Below are positions 2,818-38,281 of a stretch of 38,281 nt of DNA, one piece after another. The first letter of the stretch is position 1. Each line of letters begins with the position of its first letter. A program made the position numbers and the translations under genes. This DNA comes from a virus, in IMG/VR virus record IMGVR_UViG_3300030339_000122, positions 1-38,281 of that record, one strand, 5' to 3'. The notes beneath the pieces were generated by a model. It was not told the DNA's origin. It did no database searches and saw only the letters and a list, made by a program, of their open reading frames with translations.

Positions 2818-3131
2818 AAAGTCGGCATTCCAGTTGTATATCGCCATCGTGCATACCGACCGACTAGCTTTACCAAATTAACAAACCATTGAGCCGTAGT
2901 AGTGCTGGTAGTAACGTGGACTAGCAGTTGCATATGGATGCCACTCTTAGCAACTGAAAAGGATTGCTACTAGCACCATACGGCTCAATACACACATTAA
3001 CAATTAGAGCGTAATAGTGCTGGTAGTAATCTCGCTCCAGTCCTGTGCAGGGAATGGAGTTCTAAAGGGCGAACTAAATGATGAGCCACTCCGAAGACTG
3101 CATATTGTTACCAGCACCATACGCTCTAATA
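2818..3131 (+). ncRNA. structured leader with twin covarying hairpins
   Basis: This occupies most of the 410-base gap between ninG and the next gene. A small hairpin GTCGG/CCGAC comes first (2821-2825 with 2856-2860). Two homologous long hairpins follow. Element 1 pairs 2889-2898 with 2979-2988 and 2902-2914 with 2964-2976. Element 2 pairs 3004-3013 with 3120-3129 and 3017-3030 with 3104-3117. Both have the same NTA/CA internal loop and the core GTGCTGGTAGTAA, while the outer stems differ at four compensated positions. G-U pairs occur only in the plus-strand reading. The apical parts differ; in element 1 a 7-bp hairpin (2925-2931 with 2950-2956) has a loop that can pair as a pseudoknot (2916-2919 with 2941-2944). 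It may be a long 5' leader or a processed RNA. Confidence 0.7.
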
Positions 3132-3730: not shown

Positions 3731-3738
3731 CAACTCGA

Positions 3739-4095
3739 ATGAAGACATGGCGAGATAAATAGCCCGGTTAGAGCAGGTTACACCTGTAAGTGAGGCGCAT
3801 ACAATGGTCGTTCATTGGTTTATCTCGTCTTCATGGGCTATGTAAGTTGAAGCGATTCCGACCATATTTGGTTCACTGCGATATATAAAATAAGCAGTAG
3901 CTTACATAGACCAACGCTACCAACCAGGCTCGCGCCCTCTTCGGTGATTGCATTCACTGGGAATGGTCTGTAACGAGCAAGTAGCATGATATCGTGAATT
4001 GTATCCGAAAGGGTTTGCTCGTTATCTAAACTACTTGCTTCCATGTTTTTGTTGGAGTTACCCCCAAGCACCTGTAAAAAGGTGCTATTTTATTT
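3739..4095 (+). ncRNA. large folded RNA with intrinsic terminator
   Basis: No protein gene fits here. Long perfect pairings include 3751-3759/3819-3827, 3838-3846/3901-3909 (enclosing hairpins 3860-3873 and 3875-3898) and 3971-3980/4015-4024 (enclosing ATCC-GAAA-GGGT, a GNRA-type loop at 4003-4014). A possible closing helix 3741-3750/4041-4050 uses two G-U pairs that exist only on the plus strand. A terminator ends it at 4067-4095. The 77-nt segment 3751-3827 has tRNA-like length and a D-arm-like GGTTAGAGC, but its anticodon and T arms do not fit a tRNA. Two 9-10 bp helices compete for 3976-3980 (see findings). It could be a 3' RNA of the preceding transcript or an independent RNA. Confidence 0.6.
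4067..4095 (+). terminator. intrinsic terminator
   Basis: A 7-bp stem (AGCACCT, loop GTAAAA, AGGTGCT) is followed by ATTTTATTT. The U-rich tail is present only in the plus reading. It separates the structured RNA from the next early promoter. Confidence 0.75.
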
Positions 4096-4105
4096 GCCTA
4101 AACCA

Positions 4106-4134
4106 TTTACATTTTTGCACGACCGTGATATTAT
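4106..4134 (+). promoter_or_regulatory. early promoter P2 with palindromic operator block
   Basis: TTTACA, 17 bp, TATTAT with extended TGA. The block GCACGACCGTGATATTAT (4117-4134) is identical to P1 and P3. The leader has the GAAAGGAC ribosome site, 12 nt before the ATG at 4170. It drives the 4.17-8.5 kb operon of small genes. Confidence 0.8.
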
Positions 4135-4169
4135 TAATACATCAACAAGTCACCGAAAGGACAAGTAAA

Positions 4170-4397
4170 ATGGCAGTACGAAACTCACACGTAAGGCAAT
4201 CAACCAAAGAAGTTTACGCAACACTTGACGGTAAGAAATACAGCCTAACAGCAGAAAATTGGAACGTAAACATGAACAAAGTACGTTATGCAGCGAAGAA
4301 GCTTGAACAAGGCAAGTTATCTATCCCAGTAGACGCTCAAGTTTACTACACGATTACACACTTACAAGTAACAGAAGAAGGAAAGGTGATAGCATAA
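4170..4397 (+). CDS. hypothetical protein (75 aa), first gene of the small-gene operon
   Basis: The start MAVRNSHVRQSTK follows the P2 promoter and a GAAAGGAC site. The product is basic, with a short beta-type start (VYATLDGKKYSLTAENWNVNMNKVRYAAKKLEQG) and ends HLQVTEEGKVIA. As the first gene behind an operator-bearing promoter it could be a regulator, but no helix-turn-helix is evident. TAATG overlap with the next gene. Confidence 0.7.
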   Translation: MAVRNSHVRQSTKEVYATLDGKKYSLTAENWNVNMNKVRYAAKKLEQGKLSIPVDAQVYYTITHLQVTEEGKVIA

Positions 4398-13765: not shown

Positions 13766-14007
13766 TGAGGAGCTGGCTCAAACTCTACATTGATTTAGAC
13801 CTATTATTACCATTGCTACCACAACTTGATATACTCATTAATGAGCGAACAATTGCCGGTAAACTTTCAATCCGTTTAGATGAGATAATAGTTACCCCGA
13901 AGCAGTTTAAACTATTAAGCCAACAACTCATAGAAGATACACTCCACCGAACACTGTTATATAGGTCAATACCAATTAAAGAAGGAAATACACCCCATGA
14001 ATACTAA
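13765..14007 (+). CDS. hypothetical protein (80 aa)
   Basis: The ATG shares a base with the scaffold stop (TAATG), behind GGATGAC. Leu-rich, mixed charge (WLKLYIDLDLLLPLLPQLDILINERTIAG). Function unknown; possibly an assembly accessory. Confidence 0.6.
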   Translation: MRSWLKLYIDLDLLLPLLPQLDILINERTIAGKLSIRLDEIIVTPKQFKLLSQQLIEDTLHRTLLYRSIPIKEGNTPHEY

Positions 14008-14161
14008 CTGGTTTCTCGCTATACTTGTTATCAAGAAAATAATTGATGAAGATACTGCTACCGAGCTTGCACGTAAGCTTGATATAACTACCTATTCACA
14101 CGACTTTACAGATGCCCTAGAAGATATACAAAAGCTTCTCGATGAAATAGAGTCAGAATAG
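13997..14161 (+). CDS. hypothetical helical protein (54 aa)
   Basis: GAAGGAAA precedes the start, and it overlaps the previous gene by 11 nt. Hydrophobic start (NWFLAILVIKKII), then an acidic helix (DALEDIQKLLDEIESE). Unknown. Confidence 0.55.
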   Translation: MNTNWFLAILVIKKIIDEDTATELARKLDITTYSHDFTDALEDIQKLLDEIESE

Positions 14162-30323: not shown

Positions 30324-30584
30324 TTATCTCCCTAGTGATTGATTCTTTTTTAGTAGTTCCTGTTCAGCTTCCCACTCAATAAGTTGTGGGGTTTTAGCTT
30401 CTGAAATACCTACAGGCGTACCGTTATCAGTTGTATAGGTAGGCGCATAACTACCGGGAGTGACGCCCGCTTGTGTGATTGTATTAATTTCTAAGTCTTG
30501 AGGTTCATGCTTATATATCTTATATGTGAGAACTGCAATAACACTTAGTACAATGACGATAAGACTCAGCAGTATATCAGTCAT
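30324..30584 (-). CDS. single-span membrane protein (86 aa)
   Basis: N-terminal span ILLSLIVIVLSVIAVLTYKIY (residues about 4-24) followed by a polar tail ending EWEAEQELLKKNQSLGR. It overlaps the end of groEL by 8 nt. A spanin-like or envelope role is possible but unproven. Confidence 0.6.
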   Translation of the reverse strand: MTDILLSLIVIVLSVIAVLTYKIYKHEPQDLEINTITQAGVTPGSYAPTYTTDNGTPVGISEAKTPQLIEWEAEQELLKKNQSLGR

Positions 30585-32136
30585 GTTTTTGTTCGCGGTC
30601 TTTAAAGGTTACTGCTACCGAAGCGGTTATAAGTTTAGCGACAACTGAAGTTGAGTTGCGCACCACTTCTTTAATAACAGACGCCGGGTCAACAACACCA
30701 ACCTTTATCATATCTACAGGTTTGTAGTTAAAGTCTTCATCACGGAGGTTATACCCAAAGCCTGGTTTCGAGTTTAAGACTTTGTAGGCAGCTTGTTCCG
30801 TGTTATAGCCAGCATTATCTACAAGAGTTTTAAATGGAGCCTTGAAAGCTTCGCCAAAGTATTCAGATTTAGAGCGAAGAAGAACAGTACCACCGCCGGG
30901 AACAATACCACCATCTAAAGCAGCACGTACGGCTGAAATAGCGTCATCGGCACGTAGCTTGACTTCAACCTGTTCAACCTCTGTAGCCCCACCAACACGG
31001 ATAATAGCAACCTTACCGGTTAGCTTTGAAATACGGTCATGTAATGCTTCTCGAGTTCCCTGTGATTCAGATTCAGCCAGTTGTTGGCGTAGGTCATTAA
31101 TACGCTTTTGGGCAACGTCTGATTGACCCTGAGCACCAATAATAGTTGTCTCAAGTTCATTGATGATTACCTTATCAGCACCGCCAAGCATATCTTTAGT
31201 AAATGAGTTAGGATTAGCGCCAATAGTAAGAACTTGGCCACCAGTCACGATTGCAATGTCTTCAAGGAACAATGAACGCATTGGGCCAGAATTAGGAACG
31301 TCTACTACAGTTGCGTTCAAGACACCCTTTAACTTATTAAGAATAAGAGTAGCAAGTGCTTCTTCTTGCACATCGGCAATTATAACTACTTCAGCGCCCT
31401 GGTTGCCACCTTCAATAATCTTACCGATTAATGGGGTAATGTCGGCAGCGGTTCGAAGGGGTTTATCAGAGATAAGAATATCAACGTCTTCATGTACCGA
31501 TTGCACGGCCGTTGGGTCATTAATAAGATTGACGTGCGTAAAGCCCCGGCGGAAATAAAGACCCTTAACAAGTTCGGAGTAAGTGCCCGAACCAGCAAAA
31601 TCCTCTACAATAACACCGCCATCAAGCCCAACTGCACCAATTACATCGGCAATTAGATGGCCTAATGCTTCGTCGCCAGCTGATACAACTGCTACGTGCT
31701 TTAGTAATTTGGAATCAACATCAATTTTAATTTTATCAATCTGTGCAATAATTTCTAAAGCAGTTTTTTCAAGCATCTTTGCTACTTGCATACGATTGTA
31801 GCCAGCACCAATAAGTTTCCGTGCTTCTTTATAAAGGTTACGAGCCAAGATAACTACAGCAGTAGTACCATCGCCTACCTTAGTATTGTTTTTCTTAGAG
31901 GCCTGTACGATTGTCCGAGCAGCCATATTTTCTACAGCGTCTTCAAGATAAACATTCTTTACGTTCGTAACACCATCACGGCTAATCATTGGGTCGCCAT
32001 AAGGAAGCTCTAGGATTGCGTTACCCGCACCCGGCCCATAAGCAGCTTTAGCAACCTTATATATAGCCTCAACACCACGGGCAATTTTTGCATCTAATTC
32101 TTCATCTGAAATAACTTCACGTACTTGTTTACTCAC
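30577..32136 (-). CDS. groEL: GroEL-type chaperonin
   Basis: It is the 60-kDa chaperonin subunit that folds proteins with GroES in an ATP-driven double ring. The start is a GTG (VSKQVREVISDEEL) with GAGG upstream, inside the end of groES. The 519 residues show group I signatures: AYGPGAGNAILE, ISRDGVTNVKNVYLED, NTKVGDGTTAVVILARNLYKEA (ATP site), AVVSAGDEALGHLIADVIGAVGLDGGVIVED, DDAISAVRAALDGGIVPGGGTVLLR. It lacks the Gly-Met-rich C-terminal tail and is about 25 residues shorter than typical GroEL. A phage copy probably helps fold its own capsid or tail proteins or replaces a host chaperonin under stress. Confidence 0.95.
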   Translation of the reverse strand: MSKQVREVISDEELDAKIARGVEAIYKVAKAAYGPGAGNAILELPYGDPMISRDGVTNVKNVYLEDAVENMAARTIVQASKKNNTKVGDGTTAVVILARNLYKEARKLIGAGYNRMQVAKMLEKTALEIIAQIDKIKIDVDSKLLKHVAVVSAGDEALGHLIADVIGAVGLDGGVIVEDFAGSGTYSELVKGLYFRRGFTHVNLINDPTAVQSVHEDVDILISDKPLRTAADITPLIGKIIEGGNQGAEVVIIADVQEEALATLILNKLKGVLNATVVDVPNSGPMRSLFLEDIAIVTGGQVLTIGANPNSFTKDMLGGADKVIINELETTIIGAQGQSDVAQKRINDLRQQLAESESQGTREALHDRISKLTGKVAIIRVGGATEVEQVEVKLRADDAISAVRAALDGGIVPGGGTVLLRSKSEYFGEAFKAPFKTLVDNAGYNTEQAAYKVLNSKPGFGYNLRDEDFNYKPVDMIKVGVVDPASVIKEVVRNSTSVVAKLITASVAVTFKDREQKHD

Positions 32137-32392
32137 TCTTATAACCTCGAATATCATTAATATCAATAAAGGCAAATATCTTATCGCCGTCTTTTACTTG
32201 AGAGTCATCCTTGAAACCCTCAAAGTATATTTTGCTTCCGATTGGAGGTAGGTCTTTAGCGTCTTCATCAGTTACTTTTAATAATATGCCACTTGTCTTT
32301 GTGTCATACTTTTTTTCTACTGTGTAGACTCCTTCCCATTCTTCCGTTAGTTCAACTAATACGTTTCCGTTCATAGGTAAGAGATTTATCAT
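32129..32392 (-). CDS. groES: GroES co-chaperonin
   Basis: The 87 residues start MINLLPMNGNVLVELTEEWEGVYTVEKKY, continuing KTSGILLKVTDEDAKDLPPIGSKIYFEGF, GDKIFAFIDINDIRGY. The LLPMNGNVLVE start and SGILL mobile-loop anchor match GroES. It would cap the GroEL ring. The start is set by a leaderless promoter with TACAAT 6 nt upstream of ATG. The end overlaps the groEL start by 8 nt, ensuring coupled expression. Unlike some phage co-chaperonins (such as T4 gp31), this phage carries both partners. Confidence 0.9.
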   Translation of the reverse strand: MINLLPMNGNVLVELTEEWEGVYTVEKKYDTKTSGILLKVTDEDAKDLPPIGSKIYFEGFKDDSQVKDGDKIFAFIDINDIRGYKSE

Positions 32393-35185: not shown

Positions 35186-35522
35186 AGTTAATATGGAACA
35201 AGAACCTAGTTTTACGGTTGAAATTAACGATAAGAAATATGAGCTATCCCAGAGCAATACGACGCTCTATCGCCATTTAGGAGCTAAGGCACTTGACCAT
35301 TTCTTTTTAAAAATTGGTGAAACAGAAACCACCATAACTGGTACCCGTTTCTTCCGTGAAATATTTGCAGAAGATTCTTTTGATACTACCTCTAATTACA
35401 TGCTACAAAAAGGTTATGAAGCTCACTTAAATATCCACGAACCAGGCGAGGATGATATGGAAGCCTATATTCGCTTTAGTAACCGAAGCGAAGAAACACC
35501 CGACTGGCTTCCCGAAGCTTAA
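35160..35522 (+). CDS. hypothetical protein (120 aa; or 109 aa from 35193)
   Basis: The start at 35160 has GAAGAG upstream. MEQEPSFTVEINDKKYELSQ at 35193 is an alternative start that avoids overlap. Beta-rich and acidic (YRHLGAKALDHFFLKIGETETTITGTRFFREIFAE, ending PDWLPEA). Last protein gene before the 1.4-kb noncoding region. Confidence 0.55.
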   Translation: MVNVTKKVRVNMEQEPSFTVEINDKKYELSQSNTTLYRHLGAKALDHFFLKIGETETTITGTRFFREIFAEDSFDTTSNYMLQKGYEAHLNIHEPGEDDMEAYIRFSNRSEETPDWLPEA

Positions 35523-35555
35523 AAGGGGCGGTTACACTGGTCAAAAACCGCCCCT
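35521..35555 (-). terminator. leftward terminator of RNA E
   Basis: A perfect 10-bp stem AGGGGCGGTT/AACCGCCCCT (35524-35533 with 35546-35555) is followed by TTTT in the leftward reading. On the rightward strand there is no T run, though it may still slow the late transcript. Confidence 0.65.
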
Positions 35556-35700
35556 CTACACTAATCACGCGTTATGACAATATAAAAAAGCATTCATTGG
35601 GCCGTAAATCTTCCTTATGCAACCAAGTGGTTAATGTCATACTACCTCCCTACGCCGAAGTAAACAGCGGTACACTTGCACCCTACAAGCTAGTTAATAG

Positions 35701-35774
35701 TATATTTTAGTATTGATAGTCTGAATGTTAGGTATTTCACATAAAAACAATAAAATAAACTTATATTTTAGTAT
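35701..35774. repeat. pair of 13-bp AT-rich direct repeats
   Basis: TATATTTTAGTAT occurs at 35701-35713 and 35762-35774 in the AT-richest part of the noncoding region. It could be a replication or binding site, or part of the 3' end of RNA E. Nothing decides between these. Confidence 0.4.
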
Positions 35775-36333
35775 ACCTTTAATAGTCCCTATTTTTTGAA
35801 CGTAACCGCTCAGGGGGACTCTGACATGTGCGAGGTGTTCAATTCATGGAGCGATGCTCTTGGACATTGATAAGCCTTGCTGTTGTGTATTCCCCTGTTC
35901 TGGTAGCGACATCAATGTCGGAACCAAATGGGTATTGAAGGTATGTGAGAGGGTACTGGTGTGTTGTCGCTTCACTCCCACTCTACGAATTTGGCTTGCG
36001 GACTGGATACCGTTGTCCTACCGTGTTACTCAGGATTGCTCCTTTTAGTAGTTCCCCCACAGTTACCTTCAATTGTTATAGACAGAAATGGAGCTGGGCG
36101 ACTGTGTGAGGTAAGGATTTCATAATCGCTAATGTTGCGATTATTGCTAGCTTTCCCGCCTCAGAGTAAGCACTCCCCATTGCCATCTATAACTATACTT
36201 AATTGTTAAGGTAAAAGTGGTCATTGACGCACCTCCTGTACCACAAGCCGTACAGGTAGCCATGTTCCTTTTATTTACTTGGCTCTTTTACGTCCCCAAG
36301 TCGGTGCAGGAAACCGTCCCTAGACTGAACATA

Positions 36334-36458
36334 AGAAAAACGCCCGGTTAGGGGCGTTCCATAGTCATCTGTCATATATTATTATAGACAAGATTAATAA
36401 GAATGCAAGCCCCTACGCTTGTTTTAATAGCAAGTCATTTTTGACAGATGACGAGCTA
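36334..36458 (-). ncRNA. small RNA D
   Basis: Consensus-like promoter TTGTAA, 17 bp, TATAAT (36465-36493) gives a start near 36458. The RNA of about 125 nt has a perfect 11-bp stem (36442-36452 with 36364-36374) enclosing a hairpin CAAGC/GCTTG. It ends with terminator AACGCCC/GGGCGTT plus five U at 36336-36358. The promoter of RNA E lies in its central loop region. Confidence 0.65.
36336..36358 (-). terminator. leftward terminator of RNA D
   Basis: 7-bp GC-rich stem (36339-36345 with 36352-36358) and TTTTTCTT in the leftward reading only. It also lies in the first 40 nt of the proposed RNA E transcript, repeating the promoter-hairpin order of the late genes. Confidence 0.7.
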
Positions 36459-36464
36459 CGTAGA

Positions 36465-36493
36465 ATTATAAACCTAAAGCATAATGATTACAA
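36465..36493 (-). promoter_or_regulatory. promoter of small RNA D
   Basis: TTGTAA, 17 bp, TATAAT, leftward. One of the best sigma70-type matches in the window, with no leftward protein gene downstream. Confidence 0.7.
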
Positions 36494-36496
36494 TAA

Positions 36497-36576
36497 GAAA
36501 ATCACCGCTTCCTAACAACAATGGGGACAGCGGTGATAAAACTTGGAGGGTATATTGGTCAGGTGCGTAACCAATG
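36497..36576 (-). ncRNA. small RNA C with exposed CCCUCC
   Basis: Promoter TTGTTG (36606-36611), 18 bp, TATTAT (36582-36587) overlaps the AGGCAT motif region. The RNA of about 80 nt has hairpin ATTGGT/ACCAAT (36570-36575 with 36554-36559), a single-stranded linker containing CCCUCC (36545-36550), and a terminator with a 19-nt loop containing UCCCC. Exposed CCUCC could pair with Shine-Dalgarno sequences. Confidence 0.6.
36498..36537 (-). terminator. leftward terminator of RNA C
   Basis: Perfect 9-bp stem ATCACCGCT/AGCGGTGAT (36501-36509 with 36529-36537), then TTTTCTTATT leftward. Rightward it is followed by AAAACTTGG, not a T run. Confidence 0.65.
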
Positions 36577-36598
36577 CCTACATAATAACATAAGCAAT

Positions 36599-36628
36599 GA
36601 AAAAACAACAAGCTCGAAAGCCTGTTGT
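36599..36628 (-). terminator. leftward terminator of RNA B
   Basis: Stem ACAACAGGCT/AGCTTGTTGT with a UUCG loop is fully paired leftward thanks to one G-U; the rightward strand has an A-C mismatch there. Six T follow leftward. This settles the direction. Confidence 0.75.
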
Positions 36629-36732
36629 AATGTTTGTTTAAGAGTGTACCCATTCATATGAAAGGTGAGTATATATGAAACCTAAGGTGCGTTGCTTGAC
36701 AGGTTCCGGATTGCTTACCGGTATCAAGTAAT
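36599..36732 (-). ncRNA. small RNA B
   Basis: Promoter TTGTAA (36762-36767), 17 bp, TATTAT (36739-36744), start near 36732. The RNA of about 134 nt has a 5' stem CTTGA/TCAAG around a CCGG hairpin, an AU-rich middle, and a terminator with UUCG in its loop. No ribosome site plus open frame was found in it. Confidence 0.55.
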
Positions 36733-36774
36733 AAGCTAATAATACGCTTACGGTTGTTTAATTACAAGAAGAAA

Positions 36775-36808
36775 AAGAAAAACCGCAGACGGTGGGCGAA
36801 CTGCGGTT
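36775..36808 (-). terminator. leftward terminator of RNA A
   Basis: Perfect 8-bp stem AACCGCAG/CTGCGGTT (36781-36788 with 36801-36808) followed leftward by TTTCTTTTTCTT. Confidence 0.7.
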
Positions 36809-36884
36809 AATCTCATCGGGGTGAAAGGACTAAGTAGCATAAAGACACTACAAAAGCTCCCGATATATTCCTATCATAACAGAT
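36775..36884 (-). ncRNA. small RNA A (weak promoter)
   Basis: A leftward TATAAT (36890-36895) with no good -35 would start a transcript of about 110 nt. It has a CGGG/CCCG helix enclosing GTAG/CTAC and ends in a strong terminator. It is the first member of the leftward array. Confidence 0.4.
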
Positions 36885-36916
36885 GAGAGATTATAGCGCA
36901 ATTATTCCTAAAAGCC

Positions 36917-36945
36917 TTTCTTTTTTTGCACGACCGTGATATTAT
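36917..36945 (+). promoter_or_regulatory. early promoter P3 with palindromic operator block
   Basis: Weak -35 TTTCTT, 17 bp, TATTAT with extended TGA. The block GCACGACCGTGATATTAT (36928-36945) is identical to P1 and P2. Leader with GAAAGGAC leads to the recT start at 36979. Confidence 0.8.
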
Positions 36946-36978
36946 AGATACATAACAAAGTTCAAGAAAGGACTATAA

Positions 36979-37908
36979 ATGCCAACACTAGTCGAAGTAA
37001 AAGATGAAATTAAAGAATCACTTGTAGATATAAATAAATCGTTTGTAGATAAGTTTTTGTCTTACTACGACGATTCTGCCCGAGCAGAGCAAGGTAAAAA
37101 TAGCAAAGGCTATGATAAGCCTAAAACAGTAAGTTCACAGCCGGTAGAGGTATTGTCTGGGTTAGTTAAAAAATTCCATAACCTTGGATTACCAATAGAC
37201 GGTGTAAATGTCGTTATCACTGGTAAGAATATGGCTATGGTTACGTATAACGGTTATAAGAATAAGGTACTTGAAACCTACCCAGAAACAGAGTTTGATG
37301 TACAGCTGATACGAGAAGGCGATACCTATAGCTTTGCAAAAGAAAGCGGTTCGGTGATTTACTCTCACAATATCAGCGACCCATTCGCAGATAGCGAACC
37401 TAAAATTATCGGTGCGTACTGTGTTATTAAGAACAAGCGGGGTGAATTTCTTGAAACCTTGAATATGAACGATTACAAAGAAATGAAAAGCGGTAGCAAA
37501 CAATCTGCTTTATGGGATAAATGGGCAAGTGAGTTTTGGCTTAAATCGGTTATTAAACGTGCTTGTAAACGCCACTTTAATGATATTGTTTCTGATATTG
37601 ATAAAGTTGACAACGAAGATTTTGGTTTATCTGATGAGATAGTAGACAGAAGCACACCAACTGAGAAATGGGTGCCACGTTCGGATGAACCTATGAGCGA
37701 ACAGCAAAAAGAAATCCTTGACAACCAACTACGTCAACGAAGCATTACGACCGATGACGAAAAGAATAACTGGATGTGGGACAACTATGGTGCTGGATAT
37801 GATTTACTTACCGAGGAACAAGCCGCAGCCGTTATAAGTGACCTACAGGCTGAATATAAAGAAGGACTAGCTAATACAAAGCAAGTTAGAGATAGGTCAA
37901 AAGAATAA
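36979..37908 (+). CDS. recT: RecT-family single-strand annealing protein
   Basis: It binds single-stranded DNA and anneals complementary strands in phage recombination and possibly in replication by recombination. The 309 residues contain the RecT pattern: EVLSGLVKKFHNLGLPIDG, the GAYCVIKNKRGEFLETLNMNDYKEMKSGSKQSALWDKWASEFWLKSVIKRACKRHF block (a conserved MxxKTxxRRxxK-like helix), and an acidic C-terminal tail with SEQQKEILDNQLRQRSITTDDEKNNWMWDNYG. First gene of the early operon behind P3. No RecE/YqaJ exonuclease is present. Confidence 0.8.
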   Translation: MPTLVEVKDEIKESLVDINKSFVDKFLSYYDDSARAEQGKNSKGYDKPKTVSSQPVEVLSGLVKKFHNLGLPIDGVNVVITGKNMAMVTYNGYKNKVLETYPETEFDVQLIREGDTYSFAKESGSVIYSHNISDPFADSEPKIIGAYCVIKNKRGEFLETLNMNDYKEMKSGSKQSALWDKWASEFWLKSVIKRACKRHFNDIVSDIDKVDNEDFGLSDEIVDRSTPTEKWVPRSDEPMSEQQKEILDNQLRQRSITTDDEKNNWMWDNYGAGYDLLTEEQAAAVISDLQAEYKEGLANTKQVRDRSKE

Positions 37909-37929: not shown

Positions 37930-38281
37930 ATGAATAAGCTTTTTAAAGATTTTAACTGGAAGAAGGGTAATTTTAATGAAGCACAAAAAGCGTTTGTTGA
38001 AGAATACGGGCAAAACCAAATAAACATATACCTCAATGGTAAAACTAATAAAGAAATAGCAGAAAAACACTTAAAGGCTGTTTATAAACAATTAGGGAAA
38101 CAAGACCCTAAGGTTACTTGGTATGATTCACCTGAACATCTCGCCAAAACCGTGTGGGCTTCCGTGGGGGATTCCGTGAGGGCTTCCGTGAGGGCTTCCG
38201 TGGGGGATTCCGTGTGGGCTTCCGTGAGGGCTTCCGTGGGGGATTCCGTGAGGGCTTCCGTGGGGGATTCCGTGAGGGCTT
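37930..38281 (+). CDS. DUF6745-like repeat protein, N-terminal part
   Basis: AAAGGAG precedes the start [22 protein letters not shown]. After 77 residues (to TVWA) come ten 12-bp repeat units encoding S-V-G-D, S-V-R-A or S-V-W-A. The gene runs off the end and continues in frame at base 1. The N-terminal part ([27 protein letters not shown]) looks helical. See the entry at 1-728 for the other part. Confidence 0.75.
38161..38281 (+). repeat. 12-bp coding minisatellite
   Basis: Ten tandem units of TCCGTG(G/A/T)GGG(A/C)T, each one tetrapeptide; six more stand at 1-71. The last 48 bases equal the first 48. The number of units across the join is uncertain by four. Confidence 0.85.

Follow-up and report, generated by a model that had tools for sequence, protein, structure and literature searches.

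What is encoded in the gap that lies to the left of the early operon in this phage, and how might it act on that operon? The window analyzed here is the whole 38,281-nt (38-kb) stretch of IMGVR_UViG_3300030339_000122. Its major head protein is 60% identical to the counterpart in TM7 phage DolZOral124_53_65, which by sequence makes the window a phage with a capsid protein of the TM7-phage (Saccharibacteria) type. A recT-like gene (36979-37908, plus strand; PHROG 148, E 4e-15) lies to the right of the gap and opens the divergent early operon. The gap itself is very probably a locus of non-coding RNAs.

Intrinsic terminators were sought on both strands of the gap (35500-36978) with a strict scan, which required a perfect stem of at least 7 pairs with at least 4 G-C pairs, a loop of 3-22 nt, and T at no fewer than 4 of the 5 following bases. 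Five leftward terminators were found, with stem ends at 36781, 36605, 36501, 36338, and 35525, and no rightward ones. Dinucleotide shuffles of the gap contain a mean of 0.1 terminators, and none of 100 shuffles reaches five. These counts bear out an earlier note on this DNA, which had described five hairpins with a T run in the leftward reading only. Elsewhere in the window, the strict scan gives just two leftward terminators (31572 and 15998). A permissive, energy-based (MFE) terminator scan did not separate the real sequence from shuffles, and the terminator claim therefore rests on the strict stem-plus-T-run scan. The stem of the 36338 terminator (GAACGCCC/GGGCGTTT) is closed by a G-U pair when read leftward and by an A-C mismatch when read rightward; the statement that one terminator is fully paired only leftward is thus correct. 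The hairpins could instead be DNA elements, such as operators or origin structures, given that the gap adjoins the early promoter and that inverted repeats are abundant. This reading is very improbable, because the T runs fall on one strand only, the promoters lie on that same strand, G-U pairs favor the leftward strand, and the stems keep their pairing by compensatory change while the sequence changes. A repeat search of the gap also found no iteron-like tandem repeats.

The non-coding reading is consistent with the open reading frames. No leftward ORF of at least 60 aa is present in the gap, in line with the earlier note's statement that no protein gene runs leftward here. The sole rightward ORF of at least 60 aa (35854-36048, 64 aa) has no visible ribosome-binding site (RBS) and no relative in the genomes compared. 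Short leftward leader peptides or small proteins were also considered: inspection by eye shows one leftward frame of 38 aa, having a good RBS, near 36275-36160, and another of 32 aa overlapping the terminator of the second unit described below. The latter, the lone candidate leftward frame across that unit, is broken in the closest relative by a one-base indel inside the most conserved block, and together with the lack of leftward frames of at least 60 aa this leaves the peptide explanation with hardly any probability.

Four leftward units can be outlined between the terminators. RNA1 (about 36777-36882, minus strand) has a closing stem AUCGGG/CCCCGAU, a loop containing the putative anti-RBS UAGUCCUUUC, and the terminator ending at 36781; the earlier note named no promoter for this unit, but a candidate -10 box TATAAT (36890-36895, minus strand) lacking a good -35 lies just ahead of it. 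RNA2 (36600-36738, minus strand) follows a promoter TTGTAA-17-TATTAT (36739-36767, minus strand) that passes a standard promoter scan, and carries conserved CATATATAC...TGGGTACA..CTTAAACAAACATTA directly before the terminator ending at 36605, as seen in the alignment with the relative G012 (locus L001). RNA3 (36497-36581, minus strand) consists of a hairpin and the terminator ending at 36501, and its promoter TTGTTG-18-TATTAT (36582-36611, minus strand), identified from sequence, has a weak -35. RNA4 (36335-36464, minus strand) has an 11-bp closing stem, a core CTTGCTA..AGGG..TTGCAT..TTATTAATC, and the terminator ending at 36338; its promoter TTGTAA-17-TATAAT (36465-36493, minus strand) passes the standard scan and is nearly identical in L001. 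Good promoters thus precede units 2 and 4, and those of units 1 and 3 have a weak -35. Among the four promoters of the earlier note, the two at 36767-36739 and 36493-36465 hold and TTGTTG-18-TATTAT is present in its weak form, but TTGCAT-16-TATAAT (about 36382-36410, minus strand) lies within the conserved RNA4 core, where L001 has TTGCAT-17-TATATT. Given this position inside RNA4, it does not serve as the promoter of a further, separately terminated unit.

The left-end segment (35525-36335, minus strand) ends in the leftward terminator at 35525; no clear promoter precedes it, and none of the genomes compared contains a relative of it. The stretch 35810-36360 folds better than shuffles, with z -3.8 leftward versus -2.6 rightward, and two long stems within 35525-36335 gain G-U pairs when read leftward. 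Transcription from unit 4 may continue into the segment, or the segment may be something else. Against Rfam, the window returns no family, 6S and GcvB included, at the gathering threshold, and nothing significant at a lax threshold, where the best GcvB score is 19.8 bits against a cut-off of 42 (E 0.11).

The closest early region among the relatives is that of G012, whose RecT is 88% identical. Although blastn detects no similarity between the window and L001 upstream of recT and most of the DNA there has diverged, the G012 gap contains three strict leftward terminators and no rightward ones, versus 0.04 expected. In the alignment, unit 4 has in common the promoter (TTGTAA in the window, TTGTAT in L001, each followed by -17-TATAAT) and the core, including TTGCAT and TTATTAATC. 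Unit 2 has in common a 50-nt block ending in CTTAAACAAACATTA before the terminator, and its promoter is also recognizable. The 5' end of RNA1, AUCUGUUA, is conserved in L001, and no counterpart of RNA3 was found there. Conservation is highest in RNA2 and RNA4. The RNA4 closing stem has 11 of 11 pairs in both phages, with five pairs changed on both sides, which is suggestive of conservation by compensatory change, as far as two sequences rather than a full covariation test can indicate. The layout and units 2 and 4 are thus kept in a related phage in which no reading frame is conserved. Conservation in related phages was the check that the earlier note had set for its view of the gap as tandem RNA genes, and the layout shared with G012 and the compensatory changes in the RNA4 stem speak in favor of that view; this support does not extend to the leftmost unit, which lacks a clear promoter or relative, or to the fourth promoter, which is internal.

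The same data bear on a reading of the hairpins as serial terminators or attenuators, which would keep antisense transcription out of the rightward genes or set the level of read-through to a leftward operon. G012 does carry leftward ORFs of 96, 199, and 216 aa past its array. In the window, however, there are five terminators even though no leftward gene occurs before 32.4 kb, the promoters between the terminators mark separate units, and the segment of unit 4 from promoter to terminator is conserved with compensatory changes that a plain terminator would not need. We therefore regard this reading as improbable.

In the syntenic relative G001, whose capsid protein is 88% identical, the corresponding gap contains three leftward promoter-like units; the strict scan finds no terminators in it, those of G001 being non-canonical. 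blastn of the region against 50,697 phages gave no match. Exact-pattern scans returned G012 as the only match for unit 2, and G012 plus five other contigs for unit 4, the latter being pattern matches only. The RecT relatives L012 and L013 (58-63% identity) have coding sequence and no array upstream of recT. A GroEL-like chaperonin is encoded in the window at 30577-32175 (minus strand; PHROG 5725, E 1e-104) and is common to TM7-type relatives, including the TM7 phage; in the GroEL-bearing relatives L125-L135, the gene order to the right of groEL is different and no array was identified. Among the relatives compared, a multi-unit array with recognizable homologues is seen in G012 alone.

The earlier note proposed no function for the array. 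A new finding is that RNA1 is complementary to the RBS of an early gene. The seed UAGUCCUUUC (36823-36832, minus strand) is the perfect complement of 36966-36975 (plus strand), the recT RBS GAAAGGACTA, which is the predicted target; the two sites form a direct repeat. RNA1 (36882-36777) and this RBS do not overlap, lie on opposite strands, and have separate promoters. In the predicted minimum-energy fold of RNA1, the CCUUUCAC stretch is largely unpaired. The recT RBS belongs to an early promoter/operator/RBS cassette (36923-36973, plus strand) made up of the palindrome CACGACCGTG, TGATATTAT, and GAAAGGAC, which is repeated at 4112-4162 and at about 2763-2810. The palindrome beside TGATATTAT is identical in all three copies and is probably the operator of a phage regulator. 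A second candidate target of RNA1 is the RBS CGAAAGGACAAGTA (4150-4172, plus strand) of a 75-aa gene at 4170, with 8+5 pairs and one bulge by eye.

For comparison, the first units of L001, G001, and L085 (the locus in G015) were outlined by eye from promoter and hairpin, and pairing with the first early gene was then tested. In the window, the longest perfect match between RNA1 and the recT RBS is 10 nt (shuffle P 0.0045). The first RNA of G001 matches the RBS of its first early gene over 9+5 nt (P 0.021; duplex P 0.001), and that of G015 over 13 nt (P 0.002); the match in G012 is weaker, at 8 nt with a better gapped duplex (P about 0.1). Among these first four phages, the cognate duplex is the best in every row and column of the comparison. 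When G013 is included, the best partner of the window RNA1 is the G013 site, since GAAAGGACTA occurs in both phages. No comparable match to the first early gene is seen for the sibling RNAs, and that gene is absent from their top five. Ranked by z among RBS-bearing starts, the first early gene is 1st of 102 in G013, 2nd of 40 in G015, 2nd of 108 in G001, 3rd of 108 in G012, and 5th of 112 in the window; Fisher's method on the four ranks from the window, G001, G015, and G012 gives about 6e-4. The best energy of RNA1 across the whole window genome is unexceptional (P 0.68), and no targets of RNA2-RNA4 stood out in the genome-wide ranking of the window.

Predicted pairing also extends to further early genes. 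In three of these four genomes, the other top match is a second early gene (G001, 14296; G015, 13808; G012, 33669), which by eye has a similar promoter or RBS. The best match of G001 RNA2 is to the second early gene, over 9 nt within a hairpin loop. G013 has a 71-nt hairpin RNA divergent from its early genes; it contains UUAGUCCUUUCGUU, which matches the first gene over 14 nt and the next over 15 nt (0 of 2000 shuffles). A terminator loop of G011, UCCUUUCGUU, matches the RBSs of five genes with a common promoter type; it lies on the same strand as one of them, upstream of that gene, and is not divergent. In shuffle comparisons, the G013 RNA matches seven start regions versus 0.36 expected, and the G011 RNA seven versus 0.94 expected (P 0.003). 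The RNAs of G001, G011, G013, and G015 also emerged from hairpin scans in which position was left free. The RNAs of G013 and G011 are not independent tests, because they were found by searching for complementarity itself. By sequence, then, four related phages appear to have an RNA in the same divergent position that matches the RBS of their own first early gene, and a fifth has a comparable RNA that is placed differently. In TM7 phage MG269973 (L069), one inverted-repeat element near the early promoter gave no convincing anti-RBS match; at 13950-14100 of that phage, an inverted repeat encloses a TTGCAT-17-TATACT promoter and adjoins a strong hairpin, directly upstream of the early genes.

Some complementarity is expected of any CCUUU-rich RNA, because the early genes use purine-rich RBSs. 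Across genes in general, direct repeats of the RBS show no enrichment upstream relative to downstream controls, and the RBS argument therefore rests on the defined RNAs rather than on repeats alone. The match could be a by-product of CCUUU-rich loops, with the leftward units being real non-coding RNAs directed at the host or at proteins, such as sponges or RNAs that bind RNA polymerase or the ribosome. RNA2 and RNA4 have the highest conservation of the units yet no clear phage target, and the promoter-like TTGCAT-16-TATAAT in the RNA4 core loosely recalls 6S-like promoter mimicry. We consider this explanation unlikely, as Rfam finds neither 6S nor any other family, and as the RNA1 pairing reaches outside the Shine-Dalgarno core and, in several phages, follows the cognate genome.

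The terminators, the layout in one relative, the compensatory change in a stem, and the cognate complementarity in related phages are computed results. On balance, we favor a model in which the gap is a four-unit leftward RNA locus divergent from the recT operon, with RNA1 as a trans-acting antisense RNA that blocks early translation. Each of the four well-defined units would be expressed from its own promoter-like sequence and end at its own intrinsic terminator. A loop displayed by the RNA1 closing stem would pair with the first early gene at its Shine-Dalgarno region, and RNA1 would probably also pair with that region of a second early gene under the same promoter cassette. This pairing would block ribosome entry and thereby limit early-gene expression. 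Transcription, translational repression, and timing are what we infer from the sequence; the repression may serve the late shut-off of early genes or the exclusion of a second phage, and RNA2-RNA4 may be further regulators. Hfq was found in 0 of 147 genomes in the class of G013, with positive controls, so a mechanism free of Hfq is plausible there. G013 is the only cellular MAG of that type that carries a related phage, and the host of the window phage may differ from this class. A broader proposal is tentative and rather doubtful: that, in phages of TM7-type bacteria that lack Hfq, the divergent array takes the role of a repressor operon, each of its units controlling a different early transcription unit, with loops that co-evolve with the RBS common to the promoter-cassette regulon.

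The model has parallels in known phage RNAs. The c4 RNA of P1 and P7 is a small structured phage RNA whose complementary stretches, likely in loops, pair around the RBS of ant and block translation (PMC12197685). Like c4, RNA1 has a loop complementary to the RBS of a phage gene that it does not overlap; such complementarity within a loop is most pronounced in G013 and G015; it is moderate in the window and weak in G012. c4 controls an antirepressor and temperate-phage immunity, whereas the predicted targets here comprise recT and small early genes without a known function, and for this reason RNA1 is classed as working like c4 rather than as a c4 RNA. Unlike c4, RNA1 is divergent from its target operon and heads an array of further RNAs; the likeness drawn here is one of mechanism. 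The sar RNA of P22 and the OOP and aQ RNAs of lambda are cis-encoded antisense transcripts of the genes they control, whereas RNA1 has no overlap with its target and would pair through about 9-15 nt. All three lower the expression of phage genes, and sar interferes with the initiation of ant translation (PMC12197685). The lambda RNA PreS (LPR1) and VpdS of VP882 are phage-encoded small RNAs made during infection (PMC12197685). Both depend on Hfq, the protein found in none of the 147 genomes above, and PreS targets host dnaN. RNAII of plasmid pMV158 is a small trans-acting antisense RNA that inhibits repB translation (PMC4485353). It serves plasmid copy control, and the parallel to RNA1 is only mechanistic. 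A search of open papers found no literature on small RNAs of Saccharibacteria phages. The RNA1 locus appears to be a new form of phage antisense control, in which the target of the first member is supported though unproven.

These observations define a concrete, testable RNA circuit for Saccharibacteria-type phages. Because seed and target change together between phages, reporters with swapped cognate and non-cognate pairs are feasible in E. coli without the native host. If the model is true, a very small RNA would exert antisense control over a whole early regulon, probably without Hfq.

Several other features were noted along the way. At 2878-3130 (plus strand), downstream of one of the early promoter cassettes, two structured RNAs that resemble each other are predicted in tandem, UUGAGCCGUAGUAGUGCUGGUAGUAAC...CUACUAGCACCAUACGGCUCAA and UUAGAGCGUAAUAGUGCUGGUAGUAAU...GUUACCAGCACCAUACGCUCUAA, with fold z of -6.3 and -4.7. 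The stretch 3735-4060 (plus strand), before the gene at 4170, is non-coding and has long inverted repeats, GGCGAGATAAA / TTTATCTCG and CTATGTAAG / CTTACATAG. At the end of the record (38150-38281), tandem repeats of the GGGCTTCCGTG / GGGGATTCCGTG type continue on from the gene at 37931. Finally, JAFTFC010000001.1 (L105, L106), a 71-kb contig binned as Prevotella, has two copies of the same TM7-type phage capsid region at a distance of 40 kb; it may therefore represent an almost doubled assembly of one phage genome that was placed in the wrong bin.
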